From assembly GCF_900113005.1 (NCBI RefSeq), contig NZ_FONW01000015.1, positions 1 through 64,000 on the forward strand: a stretch of 64,000 nt of DNA, written 5' to 3'. The notes below the pieces were generated by a model. It was given only the letters and a program-made list of their open reading frames with translations, was not told the origin of the DNA and searched no databases. The position numbers and the translations under genes are program-made. This document shows positions 25,966-28,081 of the stretch, piece after piece (position 1 is the stretch's first letter; every line of letters starts with the position of its first letter). Source of the stretch: Sunxiuqinia elliptica. Lineage in GTDB: Bacteria; Bacteroidota; Bacteroidia; Bacteroidales; Prolixibacteraceae.

Positions 25966-26157
25966 TTAGTAAAATAAACTGTACACAAAGTTCATAATGG
26001 TCTCAAAAGAGATATCCATTAAGAATACAATAAGTGCTATAATAAAGGAAGCAACCATCACGATAAATGCACTATTCTGCAACTCTTTCCAAGTTGGCCA
26101 AGAAACTTTATGAACAAGCTCATTATAAGCCTCTTCGAAATAGATTTTAAGTTTCAT
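25966..26157 (-). CDS. secE: Preprotein translocase subunit SecE
   Basis: Clamp subunit of the SecYEG channel. The 63-residue single-transmembrane form has the conserved amphipathic start KIYFEEAYNELVHKVSWPTWKELQNSA and one helix (about 30-55). It is upstream of nusG in the standard order. The gap between secE and tuf contains a degenerate tRNA-like element. Confidence 0.95.
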   Translation of the reverse strand: MKLKIYFEEAYNELVHKVSWPTWKELQNSAFIVMVASFIIALIVFLMDISFETIMNFVYSLFY

Positions 26158-26179: not shown

Positions 26180-26246
26180 CTCGGACGGCAGGAAATCGAA
26201 CCTGCTTTATTAAACACATAAAAACTCCCTTTTGAGTTTCATCCGA
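26180..26246 (-). other. Degenerate tRNA-like element in the usual tRNA-Trp position
   Basis: On the minus strand, TCGGATG and CGTCCGA pair as a 7-bp acceptor stem (one G-U), and directly inside the 3' strand lies a T-arm, GCAGG-TTCGATTT-CCTGC. Between them a 4-bp ACTC/GAGT hairpin (6-nt loop) and a 5-bp TTTAT/ATAAA hairpin with loop GTGTTTA (T at position 33, 'anticodon' GTT) can form, so a 66-nt cloverleaf is possible. The T-loop has 8 nt instead of 7 and the variable loop is absent. Bacteroidota usually have tRNA-Trp (CCA) here; no CCA anticodon is present. I read it as a decayed tRNA, function unproven. Confidence 0.4.
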
Positions 26247-26278
26247 AAAGAGTCCCGAACCTCGGGGCTCGGGACTTC
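26245..26278 (-). terminator. Rho-independent terminator after tuf
   Basis: Minus strand: AGTCCCGA pairs with TCGGGACT over a 10-nt loop and is followed by CTTTT, about 20 bp after the tuf stop. It would separate the tRNA-tuf transcript from secE-nusG. Confidence 0.7.
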
Positions 26279-26298: not shown

Positions 26299-27486
26299 CT
26301 ATTCAAGAATTTCAGTTACCTGTCCAGCACCTACTGTACGTCCACCTTCGCGGATTGCAAAACGTAGACCAGTATTCAAGGCTACAGGGTAAATCAAGTT
26401 AACAGTGATGGTAACGTTATCACCTGGCATTACCATTTCACGTCCTTCTTCCAAAGTAATCTCACCAGTTACGTCAAGCGTACGCAAGTAGAACTGAGGA
26501 CGGTATTTGTTATGGAATGGAGTGTGACGTCCACCTTCTTCTTTTTTCAATACGTAAACCTCAGCTTTGAATTTCGTGTGAGGAGTGATTGAACCTGGCT
26601 TAGCCAAAATTTGACCACGCTTGATCTCTTTTTTGTCAACACCACGAAGCAACAAACCAACGTTGTCTCCAGCTTGACCATCATCTAAGATCTTACGGAA
26701 CATCTCAACACCAGTACATACAGTCTTACGACCTTCAGCACCTAAACCAATCAACTGAAGCTCATCACCTGTGTGAACAACACCAGTTTCGATACGACCA
26801 GTTGCAACTGTACCACGACCAGTAATAGAGAATACATCTTCAACAGGCATCAAGAATGGCTTGTCAATATCACGTGGAGGAAGTGGAATCCAAGTATCAC
26901 AAGCTTCCATCAATTCCATCACTTTTGCTTCCCACTCTGGTTCTCCGTTCAATGCACCAAGTGCAGAACCTTGAATTACAGGAGCGTTATCACCATCGAA
27001 TTCGTAGAAATCCAACAATTCACGAATTTCCATTTCAACAAGCTCTAACAATTCTGGATCTTCCACCATGTCAACTTTGTTCATGAAAACAACCAGTTTA
27101 GGTACGTTTACCTGACGAGCCAACAAGATGTGTTCGCGTGTTTGAGGCATAGGACCATCAGTAGCAGCTACTACAATAATAGCACCGTCCATCTGAGCAG
27201 CACCAGTTACCATGTTTTTAACGTAATCCGCGTGACCAGGACAGTCAACGTGCGCGTAGTGACGCGTAGCTGTTTGGTACTCAACGTGAGCAGTATTAAT
27301 AGTAATACCACGCTCTTTTTCTTCTGGAGCACTGTCGATAGAATCGAATGATTTCACTTCAGAGTGTCCATGTTTTGCTAATACTGTAGTAATAGCAGCT
27401 GTCAGGGTAGTTTTACCGTGGTCAACGTGGCCGATAGTACCAATGTTCACATGGTCTTTATCCCTGTTAAAATGTTCTTTAGCCAT
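26299..27486 (-). CDS. tuf: Elongation factor Tu
   Basis: GTPase that delivers aminoacyl-tRNA to the ribosome. The 395 residues have P-loop GHVDHGKTT (about 19-27), switch [18 protein letters not shown] and the C-terminal domain ending [14 protein letters not shown]. Codon use is strongly biased toward a few preferred codons, as expected for high expression. It lies directly downstream of four tRNAs, the conserved Bacteroidota arrangement. Confidence 0.98.
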
Positions 27487-27601: not shown

Positions 27602-27662
27602 CTTTTCGATCTTACAGTCCAAAAAAATGACTACTAAATTAGTAATCATTTTTTTAAAGTTG

Positions 27663-27735
27663 AGCGGGAGACGGGATTCAAACCCGCGACCCTTAGCTTG
27701 GAAGGCTAATGCTCTATCAGCTGAGCTACTCCCGC
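27663..27735 (-). tRNA. tRNA-Gly (TCC)
   Basis: 73-nt cloverleaf with acceptor GCGGGAG/CTCCCGC, anticodon arm TTAGC-CTTCCAA-GCTAA (anticodon TCC) and T-arm GCGGG-TTTGAAT-CCCGT (one G-U pair). CCA not encoded. Confidence 0.95.
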
Positions 27736-27751
27736 AAATTTATCTTCACCG

Positions 27752-27834
27752 TGGGGAGAGCAGGATTCGAACCTACGAAGTCATAAGACAGCAGATTTAC
27801 AGTCTGCCCCAGTTGGCCACTTTGGTATCTCCCC
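27752..27834 (-). tRNA. tRNA-Tyr (GTA)
   Basis: 83-nt class II tRNA with a long variable arm, acceptor GGGGAGA/TCTCCCC, anticodon arm GCAGA-CTGTAAA-TCTGC (anticodon GTA) and T-loop TTCGAAT. Discriminator A. Confidence 0.95.
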
Positions 27835-27863
27835 AACAATATTTCTAAAGAACTTTTATTTTG

Positions 27864-27937
27864 AGCCGAATCTCAGATTCGAACTGAGGACCCCGAGATT
27901 ACAAATCACGTGCTCTGGCCAACTGAGCTAATTCGGC
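27864..27937 (-). tRNA. tRNA-Thr (TGT)
   Basis: 74-nt cloverleaf with acceptor GCCGAAT/ATTCGGC and T-arm CTCAG-TTCGAAT-CTGAG. The anticodon arm reads CGTGA-TTTGTAA-TCTCG (anticodon TGT) and has one T-T mismatch at the middle base pair (29/41). First of the tRNA cluster, transcribed from the promoter about 110 bp upstream. Confidence 0.93.
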
Positions 27938-28048: not shown

Positions 28049-28081
28049 CAAATGTATAAATATTTTCAATTAATCCACAAA
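28049..28081 (-). promoter_or_regulatory. Promoter of the tRNA-Thr/Tyr/Gly/Thr-tuf transcript
   Basis: Minus strand: TTTG, 21-nt spacer, TACATTTG, a full match to the TAnnTTTG -7 box. It lies between the raiA stop and the tRNA cluster and so would drive the tRNAs and tuf independently of raiA. Confidence 0.6.

Follow-up and report, generated by a model that had tools for sequence, protein, structure and literature searches.

A non-decoding descendant of tRNA-Trp between tuf and secE keeps its acceptor stem and T arm across Prolixibacteraceae and may be a t-element-like processing signal

Introduction

The gap between tuf and secE in Sunxiuqinia elliptica raises the question of what is kept of a tRNA gene when it no longer decodes, and why. 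The initial annotation of the DNA analysed here (the window: 64,000 nucleotides, positions 1 to 64,000 of contig NZ_FONW01000015.1) had expected a tRNA-Trp between these two genes, described in its place a tRNA-like cloverleaf on the minus strand without a CCA anticodon, and proposed that it was either a decayed tRNA-Trp or a processed RNA that matures the tuf–secE transcript. Here, we compare the gap across the family and its relatives to ask where the element came from, which of its parts are under selection and what those parts may be for.

Results and discussion

A cloverleaf without the tryptophan anticodon

On the minus strand, four tRNAs (Thr, Tyr, Gly, Thr; 27937–27529) are followed by tuf, a hairpin, the tRNA-like element and secE, with the element ending 22 nt before the secE ATG. 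We take the names of tuf, secE and the genes that follow from recognition of their sequences. The features of the locus are:

26299–27486, minus strand: tuf (EF-Tu), the upstream gene; open reading frame and tblastn anchor, named by sequence recognition
26250–26277, minus strand: terminator-like hairpin GTCCCGA...TCGGGAC, a few bases 5′ of position 1 of the element; hairpin scan and 55-gap alignment
26180–26246, minus strand: whole tRNA-like element, position 1 at 26246 and discriminator-like G at 26180; RF00005 match over the exact span
26240–26246, minus strand: 5′ strand of the acceptor stem, TCGGATG, pairing with 26181–26187; covariation
26224–26237, minus strand: D arm ACTC-AAAAGG-GAGT, its GG immediately 5′ of the 3′ strand; fold, and stem covariation in a 39-row alignment
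26206–26222, minus strand: anticodon-arm remnant TTTAT-GTGTTTA-ATAAA, without a CCA anticodon; minimum free energy (MFE) fold
26188–26205, minus strand: T arm GCAGG-TTCGATTT-CCTGC, with an 8-nt loop; sequence and fold
26181–26187, minus strand: 3′ strand of the acceptor stem, CGTCCGA; sequence and covariation
25966–26157, minus strand: secE, the downstream gene, then nusG, rplK, rplA, rplJ, rplL and rpoB; open reading frames and SecE searches

The DNA of the element reads TCGGATG AA ACTC-AAAAGG-GAGT T TTTAT-GTGTTTA-ATAAA GCAGG-TTCGATTT-CCTGC CGTCCGA G. As RNA, the acceptor (UCGGAUG/CGUCCGA) forms seven pairs including one G-U and opening with U1-A72, which we count as a weak point for processing, and a 2-nt linker leads to the D arm. 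One nucleotide separates the D arm from the anticodon-like arm (UUUAU-GUGUUUA-AUAAA), whose stem is A/U only and whose nominal positions 34–36 are GUU, not CCA; there is no variable loop. The T arm (GCAGG-UUCGAUUU-CCUGC) has five pairs and an 8-nt loop containing TTCGA, and G73 stands at the 3′ end, with no CCA tail encoded. Thus, the 7-pair acceptor and 5-pair T arm with a TTCRA loop of a functional tRNA are present, with a T loop of eight, and the 7-base anticodon loop (GUGUUUA) lacks the tryptophan CCA. At a relaxed threshold, cmscan matched RF00005 over its full length (model positions 1–71) to 26246–26180 on the minus strand at 26.1 bits, short of the gathering score of 29 that serves as the cut-off for a functional tRNA (E 0.0014, for a search of 231 bases against all 4227 families), and the element was called neither by ARAGORN nor by Rfam at gathering thresholds. 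Its MFE structure is the cloverleaf (−21.6 kcal/mol, z −3.36), with 1 of 200 shuffles folding as well. The initial annotation had therefore placed the element exactly and had correctly read its 7-bp acceptor stem abutting the T arm, the two hairpins that complete the cloverleaf, the missing CCA anticodon, the 8-nt T loop and the absent variable loop; it gave the right span with a length of 66 nt, which becomes 67 nt when G73 is counted. An 8-nt T loop of the form TTCGNTTT, where 7 nt is usual, occurs in only four of 55 distinct family gaps (L034, L038, L039 and L062), an unusual change in an otherwise conserved loop.

Descent from tRNA-Trp

SecE was searched in 61 genomes and found in 57 (36 from the window's family and 21 from other families), and the stretch before it was read in all 57. 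Among the 21 genomes of the order's other families, 19 have a complete tRNA-Trp between tuf and secE and a twentieth (L071) has a tRNA cut by the contig end in which the Trp loop is still visible; the last (L087) has neither tuf nor a tRNA upstream of secE. All 36 family members have a tRNA-like remnant in the gap, and by eye none of the 36 gaps has a Trp anticodon or loop. Such elements are overlooked by ordinary tRNA searches: ARAGORN called no tRNA in the gap at any of 30 family loci, and none of 20 relatives' elements scanned reached the Rfam tRNA gathering score. The remnants have acceptors such as ACGGATG/CATCCGT, D arms such as ACTC-AATGCGG-GAGT and a T-arm consensus of GTAAG-TTCGANT-CTTAC, and the stretch separating the D arm from the T arm ranges in length from a few nucleotides to 27 nt. 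Because the automatic parse misplaced some strands, the rows that diverge most (L042, L056, L059, L062, L074 and L086) were judged by eye. The intact tRNA-Trp of L064, a genome of another family, has the acceptor ACGGATG/CATCCGT, identical to that of many remnants.

When named genomes were scanned with a NusG alignment, 80 loci were obtained, of which 78 have SecE and two do not. The Trp anticodon loop is present in 48 of the 78 gaps (ARAGORN calls tRNA-Trp in 46 of them), including those of Marinifilum, Labilibaculum, Ancylomarina, Carboxylicivirga, Marinilabilia, Anaerophaga, Perlabentimonas, Flavobacteriales and others; one gap (L162) is cut by a contig end. The remaining 29, which include those of Sunxiuqinia, Prolixibacter, Puteibacter, Draconibacterium, Mariniphaga and Prolixibacteraceae metagenome-assembled genomes (MAGs), were selected for lacking the loop and are not counted in the anticodon test; every named Prolixibacteraceae row with SecE is among them. 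Some carry vague or unlikely MAG titles (one 'Odoribacter'), and those placed in the tree group with the family (branch support 80). Sunxiuqinia dokdonensis, whose NusG is 96% identical to that of the window, has a gap identical to that of G006, of the same genus.

Because the element occupies the same position as the tRNA-Trp found in the gap of 20 of the 21 genomes from other families, these comparisons confirm it as a descendant of a tRNA-Trp that once stood between tuf and secE, where the initial annotation had expected one. As outcomes that would speak against its reading, that annotation had named an unrelated gap in relatives and a covariance score below random; neither occurred. The element shares with the tRNA-Trp of other Bacteroidota its position and a similar spacing to secE, and unlike it has an anticodon arm of no fixed size, no CCA anticodon and no variable loop, and has lost the TA after the GG of the D loop.

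Decoding of tryptophan codons is provided for elsewhere, as had also been predicted. Of 46 tRNA matches in the window's assembly (5.09 Mb, 26 contigs), one, on another contig (G000:C17:142099-142171), is typed as tRNA-Trp(CCA); by eye, it is preceded by a TATATTTGCA box and followed by a terminator-like hairpin. Across 140 family genomes, many of them drafts, a tRNA-Trp DNA query gave a full-length match of 93–100% identity in 121, a partial near-identical match in three, only weak matches, which may be other tRNAs, in 14, and none in two. An intact tRNA-Trp gene is thus the norm in this family.

Selection on the acceptor stem and T arm

The 65 family gaps comprise 55 distinct sequences (10 duplicates), of which 39 form alignment A2; the other 16 were omitted because their registers were offset or divergent or because they lay close to another row. 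In A2, 93.0% of cells are paired and 10 of 16 pairs have changed on both sides; none of 500 shuffles reached any of five measures, and registers slid along the alignment pair at most 54.4% of cells. Consensus folding alone shifted the D stem by one column and shortened the acceptor, because linker length varies, and the anchored register was used instead.

A phylogeny-aware test covered all 55 gaps on a tuf/secE/nusG DNA tree, with substitutions simulated independently at the parsimony number per column. For the 12 acceptor and T-stem pairs, none of 1000 simulations reached the observed summed G (250.5, null maximum 128.9), the double-change cells (63, null maximum 46) or the paired cells (605 of 660, null maximum 583), the registers having been located partly by pairing, which biases towards paired cells. 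In several rows the pairing-driven search displaced the 5′ acceptor strand, to the upstream hairpin or to other places, and before the test 14 of the 55 rows were returned to the site next to the D arm that is anchored by sequence; the T arm and 3′ acceptor strand of L059 were also placed by hand, and in L037, L046 and L074 a one-base offset before the 3′ acceptor strand was chosen by pairing. Taken singly, 11 of the 12 pairs have p < 0.05 by G (uncorrected), the exception being 1:72 (p 0.135), which lies beside the expected RNase P site and is formed in 31 of 55 gaps; by paired-cell count, most single pairs do not stand out.

Sequence identity by column follows the same division, at 0.82 in the T loop, 0.74–0.77 in the T stem, 0.66–0.73 in the acceptor and 0.56 in the D region, against 0.39 in the anticodon region and 0.38–0.40 in the spacers. 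The T-loop motif TTCGA is found in 52 of the 55 gaps. U-U mismatches occur at 5:68 and 6:67 in L051, L057, L058 and L100, the discriminator base varies across the family and purine-C-A follows the stem in 29 of 55. Single-sequence MFE folds recover acceptor pairs 2–4 in 51 gaps and the T stem in 35, and are weak as a whole (z averaging −1.13, with 10 of 55 below −2).

As judged from these alignments, purifying and compensatory selection acts on the acceptor stem and T arm throughout the family. From the regional identities and the covariation it follows that the anticodon part evolves like spacer and that the half recognised by RNase P and RNase Z does not. The description of the element as a decayed tRNA-Trp therefore holds for its descent and for its anticodon part, which alone has decayed, and fails for the acceptor stem and T arm, which have been kept across Prolixibacteraceae.

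Distribution within and beyond the family

A covariance model (R1) built from 39 family remnants, the window's sequence being one of the 39 rows, returned 26180–26246 as its sole match in the window's genome (65.3 bits, E 4.5e-11 over 5.09 Mb). At E <= 0.001 it matched 108 of 140 family genomes, in one copy each, SecE being found in 118 of the 140. All 108 matches lie on the SecE contig and strand and end 13–111 nt (median 21) before SecE, and the element ranges from 49 to 75 nt across the family. Ten SecE-bearing family genomes have no R1 match; six of these were read (G013, G016, G017, G019, G033 and G036) and by eye keep a divergent tRNA-like remnant; the remaining four are G086, G088, G125 and G132.

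R1 was also run over the order (295 genomes) and the class (395). Among the matches listed outside the family, all but one are 72–77 nt long and score no higher than 45.7 bits, whereas scores within the family reach 74.1; because of their length and weaker scores these are taken as real tRNAs, and of three that were read, two are tRNA-Trp before secE and one is tRNA-Pro. The exception is a 60-nt match in G411, of the family f82 (three genomes), in which both genomes with SecE found have an anticodon-less element in the same gap: ACGAATG...GTAAG-TTCGACC-CTTAC-CATTCGT in G411, and in G323 a 51-nt element (30.4 bits) with TTCAACT in its T loop. A tree built by a quick method from the Tuf, SecE and NusG proteins (63 rows) requires two changes of state, and a single change is also compatible with it because the branches of f82, Marinifilaceae, Marinilabiliaceae and Prolixibacteraceae do not separate. 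A tRNA-Trp(CCA) was not found in the drafts of G323 and G411 (97% and 92% complete; loci L220–L291), which gave no full-length DNA match, no strict tRNA-Trp pattern in the whole assemblies and no tRNA-Trp by ARAGORN on the RF00005 matches (about 50/55 and 35/53, respectively); missing contigs likely explain the absence. G323 also has a 113-nt tRNA-like gene (L278; G323:C23:183386-183498) with normal acceptor, D and T arms and a long, odd stretch in the anticodon region, which is read as an insert-bearing tRNA-Lys when ARAGORN allows introns; this may be a further case of a tRNA having its decoding part replaced.

A putative processing signal in the tuf–secE RNA

Given the descent, position and family-wide retention of the element and the compensatory selection on its fold, we infer that it is probably a bacterial t-element-like signal at which cutting by RNase P and RNase Z separates tuf from the secE–nusG message. 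With tRNA-Trp supplied from another locus, decoding at the gap would have been free to go, and the anticodon arm would have been lost or shrunk while the half recognised by RNase P and RNase Z was kept: the acceptor stem, the T arm and usually a D arm whose GG could meet the T loop. If tuf and the secE–nusG–ribosomal protein–rpoB genes are transcribed partly as one RNA, the element would fold within it, RNase P would cut at its 5′ edge so that the tuf message ended after its hairpin, and RNase Z would cut at its 3′ edge so that the secE message started about 20 nt before the start codon, the same two ends that the true tRNA once set.

Several features of the gap bear on this reading. The distance from the 3′ edge to secE is similar in the remnants (median 21 nt, n = 54) and in true tRNA-Trp (median 19 nt, n = 61). 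Only 9 of the 46 tRNA genes of the window's genome end in CCA, as reported by ARAGORN, and 3′ maturation by RNase Z is therefore expected. The base at −1 is T in 46 of 55 family gaps, compared with 30 of 50 tRNA-Trp rows, although this T may simply belong to the T-run of the upstream hairpin. In the literature, sections of PMC12630138 describe a preference for U-1 in many bacteria and only a moderate loss of cutting when a substrate lacks D and anticodon arms, and sections of PMC11143913 describe RNase P as processing mRNAs and other RNAs too and acceptor–T minihelices as cut by the E. coli RNase P RNA. In a passage of PMC8046335, tRNA-Trp is placed in the secE operon on the model of how this operon is built in Bacilli, and on that basis the tRNA-Trp/secE arrangement may be old.

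The hairpin between tuf and the element resembles a terminator, and read-through into secE may be only partial, a point against this reading. The scan for terminator-like hairpins found three sites in the window, with 1.6 expected. Across the 55 family gaps, this hairpin keeps its primary sequence (GTCCC...GGGAC) in most of the family, with arm identities of 0.68 and 0.82, a conservation that exceeds what a terminator needs, though the T-run that follows is short. The hairpin may be another conserved element in its own right, an RNase site or an inefficient terminator. The −7 promoter box of Bacteroidota is TAnnTTTG, and in a promoter search of the window none was found in the gap on the minus strand; two lie upstream, at 28056–28049 before the tRNA cluster and at 27742–27735 within it. 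Little weight can be put on the absence of the box from the gap, because the window contains no more copies than chance would give (57, against 68 in shuffles). A small upstream reading frame running from the anticodon remnant to the secE start was dropped, as by eye it is not conserved in relatives' gaps. The Gly-Tyr-Thr tRNA cluster before tuf (27662–27937, minus strand) has a second copy at G000:C13:253939-254316 (L010), with the same tRNA types and the same bit scores.

Alternative explanations

The plainest alternative, a tRNA-Trp pseudogene in neutral decay that is still recognisable, could account for the missing anticodon arm, the often broken 1:72 pair, the loss of the T-loop motif in one of 55 gaps (G016) and the divergence of genus g12. 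Stems free of constraint are not what was found, however: compensatory changes exceed both the shuffles and the tree-based null, identity is 0.66–0.82 in the acceptor and T arm against 0.38–0.40 in the spacers and anticodon region, and the element is retained family-wide, in genomes whose SecE is as little as 57% identical to that of the window, so that we consider neutral decay highly improbable. If the fold acted solely as an mRNA end-protector or as part of a terminator, with no cutting by tRNA enzymes, its place right after a conserved hairpin would be understandable, but a plain hairpin would suffice and the TTCGA of 52 in 55 gaps would have no role; we regard this as unlikely.

Two further readings keep a tRNA-like role for the fold. 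EF-Tu contacts the acceptor stem and T arm of tRNA, which is the half conserved here, and the upstream gene is tuf itself, with the ancestral tRNA in the same place; a cis-regulator of tuf or secE, bound as a tRNA mimic (for example by EF-Tu) and not cut, would fit these facts. Yet EF-Tu requires an aminoacylated CCA end, and CCA is not encoded, the discriminator and acceptor sequences vary and the element lies beyond the tuf hairpin, outside the likely tuf message; we regard such a mimic as unlikely. Alternatively, the excised RNA may itself be the product, a stable tRNA-like RNA acting in trans as a decoy for tRNA enzymes or a non-translational carrier of amino acids. The same cuts would free it, and its single copy and conserved T loop are compatible with such a role, but its length ranges widely, its discriminator is not conserved, the conserved parts are those needed for cutting and, in sections of PMC11658184, plant t-elements are cut and CCA-tailed but not charged; we think this doubtful. 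In one form of this idea, the anticodon-less RNA would be released at the rate of tuf–secE RNA synthesis and compete for the CCA-adding enzyme, for EF-Tu or for RNase P or RNase Z, coupling translation capacity to tRNA maturation. We would give that version only an outside chance, though if true it would mean that a tRNA-Trp had been turned into a non-decoding regulator lasting the age of a family.

Relation to known systems

The closest parallels to the proposed processing signal are the t-elements of plant mitochondria, described in sections of PMC11658184 as tRNA-homologous, non-decoding structures at mRNA ends that are cut by RNase P and RNase Z, the cut and CCA-tailed RNAs having been sequenced; in one study, as given in part of PMC4368725, a cox1 mRNA with a t-element was unaffected by RNase P knock-down. 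The window's element likewise is tRNA-homologous and non-decoding and lies at the end of a protein-coding message, with all 108 R1 matches just upstream of SecE, and on these sequence-level features it is most likely a bacterial t-element-like element. The two differ in that t-elements are organellar and spread across several genes, whereas here a single bacterial locus in one lineage carries the element family-wide with compensatory change, and in that the cut RNAs have been sequenced in the plant, whereas cutting of the bacterial element is predicted. In mitochondrial genomes, tRNAs within longer RNAs mark the sites of cutting, an arrangement known as tRNA punctuation. The principle, shared with mRNA cuts by RNase P, is the same, a tRNA or tRNA-like fold marking sites, except that here decoding has been given up and only the putative punctuation would remain. 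The acceptor–T minihelices used as RNase P substrates are laboratory constructs, whereas the element in the window occurs naturally and has retained its D arm. Among the papers listed in searches of the open-access literature, none reports such an element.

If the processing reading is right, the element would be a bacterial counterpart of those in plant mitochondria, and a tRNA gene in an operon would have two separable functions, decoding and the marking of cut sites, the latter selectable alone once decoding has moved elsewhere. It would also help to explain the presence of tRNAs between core genes such as tuf and secE, and the more than 100 genomes with the element (108 R1 matches) would form a natural set that reveals the tRNA parts required in vivo by the processing enzymes. 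Within that family, the gap of G016 (L059), in which the T-loop TTCGA is replaced by TGCAAGG and the acceptor strands are kept, offers a natural test case for the processing model.
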